A stretch of 64,000 nt of DNA from Halodesulfovibrio sp. (lineage in GTDB: Bacteria; Desulfobacterota; Desulfovibrionia; Desulfovibrionales; Desulfovibrionaceae). The position numbers and the translations under genes are program-made. Positions within the stretch are counted from its first letter, which is position 1, and each line of letters starts with the position of its first letter. Shown piece by piece: positions 12,520 through 17,281 of the stretch. Under the pieces are notes generated by a model. It searched no databases. It had not been told where the DNA came from and saw only the letters and a list, made by a program, of their open reading frames with translations. The stretch lies in contig NZ_JADMLB010000059.1 of assembly GCF_015482765.1 (NCBI RefSeq), positions 62,001-126,000 on the forward strand, written 5' to 3'.

Positions 12520-13212
12520 TTATGAGGAAAGTCCTAGCTCAGCACATTGTTCCAAGAGGCTTCTGTCAAGGATGTGAACATGGCGTCCGTCAGTAGATAT
12601 TATGCCTTGTTCATTCATTCGTTTTAGTGTTCTTGAAAGTGCTTCTGGGGTTGCCCCTATGACCTTTGCGAGTTCTTTGTGGGACATTGGTAGGTAAATG
12701 GTAGATTGATCGGAAGATATAGTTTGTGGATCGAGCTTTGCTATAAATGTTGCTATACGCTGAGGGACTTCTTGAAGGGAGAGTGTGCCCGCCAATTCCA
12801 TTGCATCTCGTAGGCGTTCAGAGACCTTTTGAAGCATAGAGAAAAGAAAAGCGGTGTCTTTATCAGCCGCTGCAAAAAAGCTTTGTTTTGAAATTGAAAC
12901 AACACGGCAAGGAGTTAAAGCTGCAGCTGTGACAGGAAAAGGTTTTTTCCTGAATGTAGAGCACAGGCAAAATGGCTCCCCGTCAGTCAGAACAAAAAGT
13001 GTTTGCTCTTTTCCTTCTGGCGAACTTTTGTACAATTTGGCAGTTCCATTTAGCAGGATATATAATCCAGAAGGAGATTCGCCTTCTCCAATAATGATCT
13101 CTTTGGCTTTGTAGGTCATTTCAACAGCGCCGTTTAAAAGGATGGGAAAGATCGTTGTAGGAACATCAGCAAAAAGTGGGAGTTCCTGAAAAGCTTGCTC
13201 TAATGTTTTCAT
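12520..13212 (-). CDS. Crp/Fnr-family transcriptional regulator
   Basis: The 230-residue protein has an N-terminal cyclic-nucleotide-type effector domain (residues 20-135) and a C-terminal winged helix with recognition segment GATPEALSRTLKRM near residue 190. The effector domain has Cys82 and Cys84 in FCLCS and a few other cysteines, but no N-terminal Fnr-type cluster motif, so the signal (heme, cAMP or redox) is uncertain. It is divergent from the octaheme cytochrome pair, and a TTGAT-N4-GTCAA box lies 12 bases before its start. That position suggests autoregulation and control of the cytochrome operon; this is inference. Confidence 0.88.
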   Translation of the reverse strand: MKTLEQAFQELPLFADVPTTIFPILLNGAVEMTYKAKEIIIGEGESPSGLYILLNGTAKLYKSSPEGKEQTLFVLTDGEPFCLCSTFRKKPFPVTAAALTPCRVVSISKQSFFAAADKDTAFLFSMLQKVSERLRDAMELAGTLSLQEVPQRIATFIAKLDPQTISSDQSTIYLPMSHKELAKVIGATPEALSRTLKRMNEQGIISTDGRHVHILDRSLLEQCAELGLSS

Positions 13213-13237: not shown

Positions 13238-13418
13238 TGCGCAATAATATCTTTTGGTTAATACCATTGGTATGTTCTAGAGGTATTTCTACAAGTTACG
13301 CGATGGTAGCTAAAAAGCCCCGTTAGCTCAATCCCTTTTGAAAACGGGCTGGTTTAGTATTGTTTTTAATACTATCGCAAAAAATCCGCTTTTTTTAGAG
13401 CAAGAACGGAGGTTAGTT

Positions 13419-15074
13419 ATGCTGACTAGGTTAAACACGAGCCTTTCGCGATTTGTCCTAGTGTTGGCAGCGTGTGTCGCAGTAAGTTTTTTGGAAGTTT
13501 CATTAGCTATTGCAAATCAATTAACCTTTGAGCCTGAAAAGACATATGGGGCCGAACAGGCTCGTAAGGTGTCACGTCCTACAACACGCTGGGTGACTAC
13601 TGATCACAGTCGTCATCCTGTTTTACAGCAAGAGTTTTCATCACCTGAAGAGGTTACTAGGGCATGTTTGACCTGCCATAATGAAGCATCGAATCAAATT
13701 CATCAAACAATCCATTGGACGTGGATTGATCCAGCTGACAGTGAACGTCTAATGGGGAAGAATGGCTTAACGTTGAATAATTTTTGTATTTCAATTCATT
13801 CCAATGAGCCGCGATGTACTTCTTGCCATGCGGGGTACGGCTGGAAAGATGGCCAGTTTGATTTCAATAAAGAAGAAGCAGTGGATTGTCTTATTTGTCA
13901 CGATACAACCGGCACGTATGAGAAATTTCCAACAAAAGCCGGTTATCCCGTAGAAGCTCCTACTAAGTTTGGGAAAAAAACGTTTCAACCTCCGAACTAT
14001 ACAGTAATCGCTGCATCTGTTGGTCGGCCTACACGTGCCAACTGTGGTGCCTGTCACTTTTATGGGGGAGGGGGCGATGGCGTTAAGCATGGAGATTTGG
14101 ATTCTTCATTGTATAATCCAAGCCGGCAACTTGACGTTCATATGAATTCAGAAGGGGCTAATTTTACTTGTCAGCGCTGTCATTCTACAGATGCTCATTT
14201 TATTTCAGGAAGGACTTACAAGCAGCCAGCCTTTACCGATCGTAGAAGTCTCATTGAGGACGATTTGGTAAAACGAATTTCTTGTGAATCATGCCATACG
14301 GCAACTCCACATGCTGTTGGACACAAAGCAAACGATCATACGGATAAAGTGGCCTGTCAAAGCTGTCATATTCCAGCTTTTGCAAGGGTAAAACCTACTA
14401 AAATGTACTGGGATTGGTCTACAGCAGGTAAAATGAAGGATGGTAAACCATACAAGGTTAAAGGTGCATTTGGAAAAGCTTCGTATATGACGAAGAAAGG
14501 TCACTTTGTGTGGGAGAAAAATGTTCAGCCTGAATACTTCTGGTACAACGGAAAAATGGATTATCTTTTGGTAACGGATAAAATTGATCCAACAAAGGTT
14601 GTAAAGGTTAATTTTGTTGAAGGTGATAAGGATGATCCAGATTCTCGAATTACTCCGTTCAAAGTGCATAGAGGAAAACAGCCGTATGATTCAGTGAACA
14701 TGACCATGGCTATTCCTCATCTTTTTGGCAAAGACTCTTCTGCATTTTGGAAGGGCTTTGACTGGAATGCCTCACTGACAGCAGGAATGGCTGCGGCTGA
14801 TGTTCCGTATAGCGGTGAGTATGGCTTTGTTGAAACAGAGTATCATTACCCCATTACGCACATGGTTGCTCCTAAGGAAAAGACACTGTCATGCAATGCT
14901 TGTCACGTAAAAGATGGGCGGCTGGCAACTTTGTCGGGGTTCTACATGCCGGGTCGTGATGGGAGTCGGACTGTGGATATTCTTGGGTGGGTTGCAGTCC
15001 TAGCTGCATTGATCGGTGTTATTGTTCACGGTGTGATGCGTGTAATCAGTAAGTCAAAGAGTGAACAGGAGTAA
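13419..15074 (+). CDS. Octaheme c-type cytochrome, tetrathionate reductase (OTR) family, membrane-anchored
   Basis: The 551-residue exported protein has a signal sequence (residues 9-33), eight CxxCH heme motifs (CLTCH, CTSCH, CLICH, CGACH, CQRCH, CESCH, CQSCH, CNACH) and one C-terminal membrane helix near residues 520-542. Number and spacing of hemes fit the octaheme OTR family known from Shewanella, whose members reduce tetrathionate, nitrite or hydroxylamine in vitro; the natural substrate here cannot be decided. The C-terminal anchor and the cytochrome b gene two bases downstream suggest a quinone-linked complex on the outer face of the inner membrane. ACGGAGG six bases before ATG 13419 fixes the start; an upstream in-frame start 27 codons earlier would spoil the signal peptide. 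Confidence 0.9.
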   Translation: MLTRLNTSLSRFVLVLAACVAVSFLEVSLAIANQLTFEPEKTYGAEQARKVSRPTTRWVTTDHSRHPVLQQEFSSPEEVTRACLTCHNEASNQIHQTIHWTWIDPADSERLMGKNGLTLNNFCISIHSNEPRCTSCHAGYGWKDGQFDFNKEEAVDCLICHDTTGTYEKFPTKAGYPVEAPTKFGKKTFQPPNYTVIAASVGRPTRANCGACHFYGGGGDGVKHGDLDSSLYNPSRQLDVHMNSEGANFTCQRCHSTDAHFISGRTYKQPAFTDRRSLIEDDLVKRISCESCHTATPHAVGHKANDHTDKVACQSCHIPAFARVKPTKMYWDWSTAGKMKDGKPYKVKGAFGKASYMTKKGHFVWEKNVQPEYFWYNGKMDYLLVTDKIDPTKVVKVNFVEGDKDDPDSRITPFKVHRGKQPYDSVNMTMAIPHLFGKDSSAFWKGFDWNASLTAGMAAADVPYSGEYGFVETEYHYPITHMVAPKEKTLSCNACHVKDGRLATLSGFYMPGRDGSRTVDILGWVAVLAALIGVIVHGVMRVISKSKSEQE

Positions 15075-15076
15075 TT

Positions 15077-15688
15077 ATGTCTTCCAGAAAGTTATATCTC
15101 TACACTCGTTTTGAAAGGTTTTGGCATTGGGCGCAAGCCTTGTTGATCATTATCTTACTAGTTACTGGCTTTGAGGTTCACGGTACTTTTCGACTTTTAG
15201 GATTCGGTGTGGCCGTATCAATACATAATTTTTGTGCATGGACATGGTTAGTTCTGTATGCGTTCATTGTTTTTTGGATGCTCACAACCGGAGAGTGGCG
15301 GCACTATGTTCCGACATTTGTAAAAATGTTTGAGGTGCTTCAGTACTATATTTCAGGAATCTTTAAAGGAGAACCACACCCCGTACCCAAATCAGAACGC
15401 ATAAAACATAATCCGCTTCAACGGATTACCTATTTGGGAATTGTGTCTGTTTTAGTGCCTTTTCAAATTGTCACTGGTTTCTTGTACTATTTGTATAATG
15501 ATTGGCCTGTGTTTGGGTGGGAGCTGAGTCTTTCTGTGGTGGCAATCTTACATACAGTCGGAGCGTTTGCCATGTTGGTGTTTTTTGTAATCCATGTGTA
15601 CATGACAACGACTGGGCACCATCCTTTCTCACATATTAAAGCAATGTTTACTGGCTATGAGGAATTGGATGAGGACAACGTTGCTTGA
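15077..15688 (+). CDS. Cytochrome b561-type membrane subunit
   Basis: A 203-residue protein with four membrane helices and a DUF4405/PhsC/HyaC-like cytochrome b profile. Histidines at the right places for two hemes include RFWHWAQ near residue 16, VSIHNFCAW, ILHTVGAF and VIHVYMTT. It begins two bases after the octaheme cytochrome gene with AGGAG before its ATG. It probably exchanges electrons between menaquinone and the octaheme subunit. The family also serves hydrogenases and thiosulfate reductases, so the partner assignment rests on gene adjacency. Confidence 0.88.
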   Translation: MSSRKLYLYTRFERFWHWAQALLIIILLVTGFEVHGTFRLLGFGVAVSIHNFCAWTWLVLYAFIVFWMLTTGEWRHYVPTFVKMFEVLQYYISGIFKGEPHPVPKSERIKHNPLQRITYLGIVSVLVPFQIVTGFLYYLYNDWPVFGWELSLSVVAILHTVGAFAMLVFFVIHVYMTTTGHHPFSHIKAMFTGYEELDEDNVA

Positions 15689-16112: not shown

Positions 16113-16271
16113 TTATCGTAACGCATCAATGTGGAGTGGTCTATGACAATGAGGGCAAACAATGTATGGGCAATGTTTGGTTGTATCTAATAAAGTGTAT
16201 GTCCAGTTTCCTGAGTGCTTCACATAATCAACTAACAGGGCAAAACCACAACTGCAGAATCTTTTTTGCAT
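16113..16271 (-). CDS. Small zinc-ribbon protein, Com-like
   Basis: A 52-residue reading frame with a strong ribosome site (GAGGT just before ATG). The protein starts MQKRFCSCGFALL and has cysteines at 6, 8, 34, 39 and 42 (CSCG and CPHC), the layout of a short treble-clef or rubredoxin-like zinc ribbon. The general form recalls phage Com proteins, which control translation by binding mRNA, but no specific motif proves that. It lies downstream of a CI-like repressor and of a structured element with a terminator-like hairpin, so its expression may be conditional. Confidence 0.65.
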   Translation of the reverse strand: MQKRFCSCGFALLVDYVKHSGNWTYTLLDTTKHCPYIVCPHCHRPLHIDALR

Positions 16272-16307
16272 AATTACCTCGTTGTTTATAAAAGTTAACA
16301 GGTGGTG

Positions 16308-16333
16308 GCTAATAAAAGCCAGTGAACTGGCTT
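16308..16333 (-). terminator. Terminator-like hairpin ahead of the zinc-ribbon gene
   Basis: AAGCCAGT and ACTGGCTT (16316-16333) form an 8-bp stem; on the minus strand it is followed by TTATT, making TTTTATT after the GGC. It sits between the structured element and the zinc-ribbon start, 45 bases before the ATG, where it could act as an attenuator. On the plus strand it lacks a T run. Confidence 0.5.
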
Positions 16334-16341
16334 AAAGGGGG

Positions 16342-16477
16342 GTAACATGCCTGTATAGCGAGCGTGCTGGAAAAGCATACGTTGTAGAGGCGCTTTTTTT
16401 GCGTGGTAGCACTGTTACTAATTCCTACGGTTGATGGTGTTCATAGGAATAATTTGTACACCATACAGGCATGTTAC
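16342..16477 (-). ncRNA. Structured element: 15-bp inverted repeats enclosing two further hairpins
   Basis: GTAACATGCCTGTAT (16342-16356) and its exact reverse complement (16463-16477) close a 136-bp unit. Inside are a 7-bp hairpin (16421-16427 with 16444-16450) and a second arm (16364-16368 with 16408-16412, then 16371-16376 with 16392-16397), making a three-way junction. Read as minus-strand RNA, the closing helix extends to 19 bp with two G-U pairs, which the other strand cannot form. The second arm mildly favours the plus strand, so the strand is not settled. It may be a riboswitch-like leader, a small RNA, or a tiny MITE-like element; I see no target-site duplication. Confidence 0.5.
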
Positions 16478-16522
16478 TGTCTAAACAAAATATATCTAAG
16501 TGTCATTAATCGGTCATGGCTA

Positions 16523-17170
16523 CTAATAGTCGCGTGCTGACCAGACAATTTTTCCAATCATTCGGAAAGAGAGAAGTTCATCTCCTTGAATGGTGATTGG
16601 TGAATAACTTGGGTTATCACTAAGTAAAGTTATTTTTCCATGTTCCGCCGCAACTCTTTTTACCATGATAGAATCTTCAATTCCGACGGCATAAATACAA
16701 TTTGAACGTAATGTTGTTTGAGATTGGTCAACCAACACGGTGTCACCTTGCAAAATGAAAGGCTCCATGCTGTCACCAATAACATCCATAAGAACCATGG
16801 TTGAAGGAGTGCCTTTTTGTGCTAGCCAAGATTCTTTGAAAACATGTTCTTCTATTGGAGTGGCTTCAACTTCATATGAGCCATCACCAGCACATAATCT
16901 AGCAAAAACCTTCGGTACAAAAAATGTGTCAGAATTGTTTTCAGCGTTGTTGACCGGAGCCTGTGGTTCGCCCTTTCCAAATTCAAGCCAATCGGCTGAC
17001 AGTTTGAAAGAGCGGGATAATGCAAGAACCCATTTTTGAGGAATAGAATTTCTGCGTTTAGCCTGAGTGATAGCGGAACGGTTGACTCCTAGCGCTTTTG
17101 CAAGGTCGTGTTGCGAAGCAATAGGAGTGTTTTCTTTTACCCGCGTGAAAAATGTGTTGAAATCTATCAT
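16523..17170 (-). CDS. CI/LexA-like repressor with S24 peptidase domain
   Basis: The 215-residue protein has an N-terminal phage-type helix-turn-helix (residues 17-40, SQHDLAKALGVNRSAITQAK). The C-terminal S24 domain carries the catalytic Ser in GDSMEPF and Lys in IMVKRV, expected to self-cleave with RecA or to act as a dimerisation module. Such proteins control prophages or SOS-like responses. Palindromic AT-rich DNA upstream (about 17215-17250) could be its operator. No other phage genes flank it, except perhaps the small zinc-ribbon gene, so this may be a remnant or a domesticated regulator. Confidence 0.88.
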   Translation of the reverse strand: MIDFNTFFTRVKENTPIASQHDLAKALGVNRSAITQAKRRNSIPQKWVLALSRSFKLSADWLEFGKGEPQAPVNNAENNSDTFFVPKVFARLCAGDGSYEVEATPIEEHVFKESWLAQKGTPSTMVLMDVIGDSMEPFILQGDTVLVDQSQTTLRSNCIYAVGIEDSIMVKRVAAEHGKITLLSDNPSYSPITIQGDELLSFRMIGKIVWSARDY

Positions 17171-17281
17171 AAGTTACTCATAGGTTCTGGGCATAGTTAG
17201 AGCACCATTTGATGCGTGTTGATATATATAAACATAGCGAAAACTTTTTTCAATCATAAAAAGTACAACGTATAAAAATGA

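Follow-up and report, generated by a model that had tools for sequence, protein, structure and literature searches.

Downstream of a gene coding for an S24/CI-like repressor, the window (the whole stretch of 64,000 nucleotides analysed here) contains a structured element of 136 bp which, with a probability of roughly 0.62, is a dispersed miniature element that was retained and domesticated in the 3' untranslated region (UTR) of the repressor gene, where it would act as RNA. On the minus strand, the repressor gene is followed, in this order, by the element, a terminator-like hairpin, an operator-like palindrome and a zinc-ribbon ORF. The features referred to below are, from the repressor side onwards:

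17217-17234, no strand assigned: further copy of the operator-like palindrome, preceding the repressor gene
16523-17170, minus strand: S24/CI-like repressor gene with HTH (PF07022) and peptidase (PF00717) domains according to Pfam; the element lies in its 3' flank
16342-16477, minus strand: structured element, 136 bp; its conserved 5' boundary sequence extends to about 16485
16459-16477, minus strand: closing helix P1, 5' arm
16421-16450, minus strand: hairpin P2, with arms 16442-16450 and 16421-16429 and loop AACACCAUCAAC
16364-16412, minus strand: hairpin P3, with outer helix GUGCU/AGCAC (16408-16412 with 16364-16368)
16398-16407, minus strand: conserved loop of P3, ACCACGCAAA
16392-16397 with 16371-16376, minus strand: inner helix of P3, AAAAGC/GCUUUU, with a variable tip
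16342-16360, minus strand: closing helix P1, 3' arm
16309-16333, minus strand: intrinsic-terminator-like stem-loop with U-rich tail; a similar one is present in the element-free genome G008
16283-16300, no strand assigned: operator-like palindrome TGTTTATAAAAGTTAACA, between the terminator and the zinc-ribbon ORF
16113-16271, minus strand: zinc-ribbon-like ORF of 52 residues, without a Pfam family above the cut-off

The unit is delimited by exact 15-bp inverted arms at 16342-16356 and 16463-16477. Read as minus-strand RNA, its closing helix grows to 19 bp, composed of 17 Watson-Crick and two G-U pairs (arms 16342-16360 and 16459-16477), and encloses the two inner hairpins P2 and P3. The initial annotation had described just such a 136-bp unit with exact 15-bp repeats and two inner hairpins, a 19-bp minus-strand helix with two G-U pairs, and a terminator-like stem-loop and a 52-codon ORF next to it, and all of these were found again at the same sites. 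Exact 15-bp inverted arms within 200 bp occur at six sites in the window, but it is only at the element that they enclose 106 bases, the other five sites being tight hairpins with loops of two to five bases. Folding of the minus-strand RNA 16250-16520 yields -66.1 kcal/mol as compared to a shuffled mean of -48.6 (z = -4.42), with none of 200 shuffles being equal. The form of P3 that is kept in the relatives has two helices, the outer of 5 bp and the inner of 6 bp, separated by an asymmetric loop, and is not the same as the minimum-energy fold of the window's sequence taken singly. Conserved sequence resembling TTCAGATT starts about eight bases ahead of the 5' arm, and the bases preceding this arm read TTTAGA in the window and TTCAGA or TTCAAA in the relatives.

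Orthologous elements between the S24/CI-like repressor gene and its terminator are found in four of the ten genomes of the genus, namely in the window's own genome (G000) and in G009, G007 and G004, the copies having diverged from each other. At this locus the element is absent from G008, G001, G002, G003, G005 and G006, and the spacer measures 242-251 bp in the carriers as against 91-182 bp in the element-free genomes of the genus. A covariance model built from the four orthologues only (R1) detected strong copies (E about 1e-30) exclusively in the four carriers among 288 genomes of the family, in a search that used stricter filters and scored 11 candidates in each genome. In a phylum sample of 297 genomes a strong copy was found only in G000, and a pattern representing the two loops occurred in the same four genomes alone among 348 genomes of the order. 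With more distant members of the genus as outgroup, the four carriers form one group in all four trees computed (FastTree support of 0.997 for nucleotides and 0.982 for protein; IQ-TREE bootstrap values of 79 and 68, respectively), and therefore one gain ahead of these four species is likely, loss of the element in G008 and G001 being a possible alternative. Alignment revealed no clear relic in the element-free genomes G008 and G001 in eight comparisons against 500 shuffles: in the best of these, G008 with G000, 14 of the 500 shuffles were as good, and in the other seven between 54 and 304.

As judged from the four-fold degenerate sites of mutS, of which 35-49% are identical among the four carriers, these species are near saturation at silent positions. 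In an alignment of the four sequences, 91.3% of all cells nevertheless pair and two-sided changes are found in 12 of 32 pairs. Sliding the partner by one to three columns lowers pairing to 28-48%, and not one of 500 shuffles comes up to the observed value in any of the five measures of pairing and covariation (n = 4 orthologues). RNAalifold likewise yields 12 pairs with two-sided changes among 39. The sister copies in G009, G007 and G004 fold at z-scores of -5.0 to -5.5, in each case with none of 200 shuffles being equal. In P2, the loop has a pairwise identity of 82-100%, yet the stem, at 19-75%, still pairs; in P3, the respective values are 79-95% for the 5' side, 0.82-1.0 for the 3' side and 0.10-0.50 for the tip, and in the arms of P1 they are 0.53-0.72. 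Both conserved loops are rich in A and C. Taken together, compensated stems and almost constant loops in genomes with mutS silent sites only 35-49% identical provide good support for selection on the structure of the element at the level of RNA. The earlier suggestion of an RNA rather than a DNA symmetry is thus borne out by covariation and conserved loops, and the check proposed along with it, covariation at homologous loci, turned out in its favour in the four orthologues (12 of 32 pairs with two-sided changes, 0 of 500 shuffles). Conserved RNA structure with conserved exposed loops is also what would be looked for in a small RNA, be it derived from a 3' UTR or independent.

With respect to the strand, the terminator hairpin has its U-tract on the minus strand only. 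In the arms read by hand, G-U pairs outnumber A-C pairs by 11 to 3 (one-sided p = 0.029), and by 7 to 1 in P1 alone; the hand-read P2 arms are imperfect in G004 and G007, and the two P1 arms of G009, from which bulges had been removed, as well as one P2 arm of G007 did not pass the arm check. In the model structure the excess is weak (10 to 6). Because a terminator is found only there and because G-U pairs exceed A-C pairs, the element is likely read from the minus strand, from which it would presumably be transcribed. The stem of the terminator-like hairpin spans 16316-16333 and is followed by UUAUU; a simple terminator scan of the window found no terminator and left the stem-loop at 16316-16333 unflagged because its U-tract is short. 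G009, G007 and G004, the three sister carriers, have a similar stem-loop, and so does G008.

Beyond the repressor locus, R1 matched a further copy, G007b, in the dctP-dctQ spacer on contig 5 of G007 with 31.8 bits, the next best non-orthologous matches among the 288 family genomes reaching 21.6 and 20.8 bits. This insert of 230 nt separates the stop codon of dctP from the terminator of that gene. It is absent from G009, G008 and G000, where a terminator hairpin follows within about 30 nt of the dctP stop, so that one filled and three empty sites are available, as for a MITE-like element; the empty spacers are too diverged to define a target duplication, and no dctP match at E 1e-80 was found in G004 and G001. 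The closing helix of the insert is formed by AGATTGAGACAAATCTGTGCA and TGTGCAGGTTTGTCTCTATCT (inverted-repeat identity of 17/21; 26 of 28 pairs in the extended helix), and its 3' arm is located outside the stretch matched by R1, in which the helix seemed to be broken. In addition, the insert has a P2 hairpin with a 10-nt loop, the inner helix of P3 and a further domain at its 3' end. Folded alone it reaches -89.8 kcal/mol compared to -64.5 (sd 4.5) for mononucleotide shuffles, whereas a fold of G007b that included flanks, yet not the whole 5' and 3' context, exceeds shuffles only moderately (z = -2.52, with 3 of 200 being as good). Aligned with the copy of G004 it scores 98 as against 42.3 for shuffled sequence; the blastn comparison of these two copies has an E-value of 7e-6 and that with a four-sequence profile one of 6e-5, both per one 4.2-Mb genome and uncorrected for the 288 genomes searched.

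A second model (R2), comprising the four orthologues plus the G007 insert, was run against 38 genomes with at most 100 candidates scored per genome. Matches with E < 0.01 were obtained only in G007 (five), G004 (two), G000 (one) and G009 (one), and matches with E up to 1 in 20 of the 38 genomes, those outside G007, G004 and G009 being weak (E 0.03-1). All R2 matches with E up to 1 in the latter three genomes, apart from the repressor-site copies and the G007 insert itself, add up to 14 regions, 12 of which resemble the G007 insert with an E-value of 0.01 or lower: four long relatives (three in G007, one in G004) and eight of about 50 nt that consist of the P2 module only (seven in G007, one in G009). 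The regions L237 and L240, which have no match to the insert at E 0.01, were rejected as members, as were the weak R1 matches G278 and G241. The closing helix beats all 200 shuffles in six of the nine long or orthologous copies, and in line with a MITE-like element terminal inverted repeats are thus present; it is weaker in copies c and d (20 and 31 of 200 shuffles) and in the repressor-site copy of G009 (3 of 200). In a broader helix search, two of 11 regions stood out. According to a rough ORF listing the dispersed copies are mostly intergenic and lie in varied places, giving, with G007b and 12 loci in G007, G004 and G009, several copies at unrelated positions. R1 by itself does not recover the dispersed copies other than G007b, and since R2 contains G007b, it is only through this copy that the repressor-site elements are linked to the dispersed ones. 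The window's own genome has a single copy, and dispersal is therefore visible in the relatives only; the MITE alternative raised by the initial annotation is thus partly supported, by the dispersed copies in sister genomes. In a sample of 119 family genomes that left out G007 and G004, the P2-module pattern was found only in G009 and was absent from the other 118. In the G007 copies L231-L235, the P2 module is followed by short palindromes of the types GGGTCTGGGGGAAA.., ..TTTCAGCCCAG and GCCGCCGGAGGC, with which it makes up a composite intergenic repeat.

In their size of about 100-200 bp, their dispersal and transcripts with long stem-loops, the Correia/NEMIS, ERIC, RUP and YPAL elements, as portrayed in PMC2229807, resemble the family described here in these features. 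In contrast to them, there are few copies here, and one copy is kept across species with covariation and near-constant loops. According to the same source, RNase III has been proposed to act on NEMIS RNA, and ERIC to influence the stability of mRNA. That a miniature element can become the source of a small RNA has a precedent in QMITE1 and QMITE2 of Coxiella burnetii, from which small RNAs are derived (PMC5896051); there, expression was measured in one species, while the present element is known from sequence and from covariation between species. Like the 3'-UTR-derived small RNAs treated in PMC9438474, it lies between a stop codon and the terminator of the gene and forms a structured RNA, although here a predicted one. 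For Oleidesulfovibrio alaskensis, PMC11124144 lists 37 noncoding RNAs from 18 Rfam families.

At gathering score, Rfam recognised nothing in the window but a tRNA. Under relaxed conditions, the best Rfam match of the element had an E-value of 0.13 (13.1 bits against a cut-off of 46), and the best of four matches of the G007 insert one of 0.039 (21.0 bits against 111). As no description of this element was found in the open-access literature either, it is new to the databases and open-access literature searched, but of a known kind. It represents a structured RNA without an Rfam match, yet with clear covariation, and a single element is observable in two states, as a repeat scattered through genomes and as a copy that selection has maintained across species nearly saturated at silent sites, so that the step from mobile repeat to host RNA becomes testable in a few relatives.

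The scenario outlined at the beginning would start from a dispersed family of elements of about 130-230 nt, with a closing helix made of terminal inverted repeats and with two hairpins, one of which carries a conserved loop of about 10 nt. One copy would have landed between the stop codon of the repressor gene and its terminator in an ancestor of the four species and then have been kept and domesticated. Read from the minus strand, it would be part of the repressor 3' UTR or of a short RNA ending at the shared terminator, and would form a stable P1-P2-P3 RNA with the two A/C-rich loops as its working parts. Since it lies between stop codon and terminator, the element would be carried on the repressor mRNA, from which it could be released as a 3'-end RNA or where it could set mRNA stability. 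We infer its transcription, the direction of copying and its molecular role in this way; it would most likely act as RNA, either by forming a 3' end that is processed or stabilised or by being released from the repressor transcript as a small RNA, and a promoter of its own is possible. It is an unlikely, more far-reaching variant that a spreading element was fixed in a LexA/CI-like repressor operon as its noncoding arm, that the two loops of the released RNA act in trans, and that the dispersed relatives are either offspring of an RNA gene, comparable to SINEs, or a pool that supplies RNAs of this sort.

Next in order, though with no better than about one chance in four, comes an independent gene for a trans-acting small RNA with its own promoter, sharing the terminator and using the A/C-rich loops as seeds, the dispersed relatives then being later, degraded offshoots. 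The exposed conserved loops, the closed structure and the terminator at the 3' end would all suit such a gene, and the promoter-like sequence ATGACC-17-TATATT has its last base at 16489, roughly twelve bases ahead of the 5' arm. However, five promoter-like sites in 1.3 kb are near the expected 3.8, and inspection of the relatives disclosed no counterpart of this one. Sites complementary to the P2 loop are, moreover, no commoner in the carriers (3-7 per genome, including the own element) than in two element-free genomes (4 and 9), and the best match to the P3 motif in G007, an exact one, is located inside an ORF of 784 codons. A small protein was considered as well: G000 and G004 share a GTG frame of 26 codons starting at the conserved GTGCTA of P3, in a listing that took only frames with a stop inside the spacer. 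It was rejected and the frame is read as noncoding because G007 has a one-base deletion in the conserved block and because the frames diverge after about six codons.

Less probable still is a purely selfish MITE- or REP-like repeat with symmetry at the DNA level and no host function at this site. The dispersal over mostly intergenic places, the inverted ends and the one filled and three empty sites are just what such a repeat would leave behind, but the orthologous copy in four nearly saturated species has kept its loops and compensated its stems, and this reading is disfavoured because a dead repeat would be expected to decay. A virus-borne origin of the element was likewise discarded: the two-loop pattern fits 22 viral contigs, which by eye comprise two unrelated sequence families, and at these sites the model found nothing, with two hairpin-only matches elsewhere (E 5.2); the pattern of the helix ends occurs in 27 viral contigs, with one hairpin-only model match elsewhere (E 0.65), and that of the P2 module in no viral contig.

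Riboswitches with a three-way junction and an intrinsic terminator resemble the locus of the element in fold and gene order, and the initial annotation had taken the arrangement for an aptamer and expression platform of the zinc-ribbon ORF. The corresponding rival explanation is a riboswitch or attenuator controlling the 52-residue gene via the downstream terminator. Aptamer-like fold, terminator and ORF do follow each other in this order on one strand, and the isolated 3' arm of the terminator pairs with the upstream spacer at -7.7 to -9.3 kcal/mol. As the terminator hairpin itself has -8.9 to -10.9 kcal/mol, close to these duplex energies, competition would stay possible on that measure alone. 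In ensemble folds, however, element and terminator form separate structures in the four species, with terminator-upstream pairing near zero in three of them (0.03-0.06); the competing pairs seen in a truncated RNA of G004 are formed with bases that precede the element, and they disappear when the full spacer is folded. Relatives of the zinc-ribbon ORF are present in 32 of 59 genomes searched, the four named ones being Desulfovibrionaceae, Desulfovibrio, Desulfovibrionales and Deltaproteobacteria records, and in all ten of the genus, of which only four have the element. The six ORF-bearing genomes without it deprive the proposed platform of support, all the more as the element-free G008 retains the terminator and the conserved leader. 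Hairpins with a T-tract that differ from this terminator follow the repressor gene in G002, G003, G005 and G006 by inspection, while none is evident in G001. Furthermore, a conserved operator-like palindrome sits between terminator and ORF, the element has no Rfam match, and, in contrast to the three-way-junction riboswitches, no expression platform was found. Given the distribution of the gene, the operator-like leader downstream of the terminator and the lack of competing ensemble pairing, the riboswitch was rejected as very improbable; the element is probably not a switch of the neighbouring zinc-ribbon gene, and the riboswitch-like order of parts in the window is probably coincidental.

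The leader of the zinc-ribbon ORF, GTTAACTTTTATAAACAA, is unchanged across the six closest genomes, and the palindrome pattern has an exact match at this site in eight of the ten genomes of the genus. In the window, TGTTNAN6TNAACA occurs twice (0.16 expected; at least two in 1 of 100 shuffles), once before the zinc-ribbon ORF and once before the repressor gene. This pair of palindromes would fit a control by the S24/CI-like repressor. In the six closest genomes, palindromes of the TGTTTATATATATAAACA type occur at three to five places per genome, compared to zero to three for a backward control pattern, and precede the repressor gene in five of the six. They are also found between a gene for a TrkA-type channel and ligA in G000, G004, G007 and G009 (L124:1501-1518), and in one further spacer of G000 (L116:1501-1518); the distribution of these sites suggests a small regulon of the S24 repressor. 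Between palindrome and ligA there is a strong conserved hairpin with a T-rich stretch of the GAGTGTAGAATA..TATTCTACACTC type (L124:1446-1720; orthologues in L110, L112 and L115), which is either the terminator of the channel gene or the end of a short transcript. Elsewhere in the window, a gene for a multihaem cytochrome c (PF11783, PF14522) adjoins one of the cytochrome b561 type (PF01292) at 13338-15688, and a gene for a Crp-like regulator (12520-13212) lies beside the multihaem cytochrome genes.
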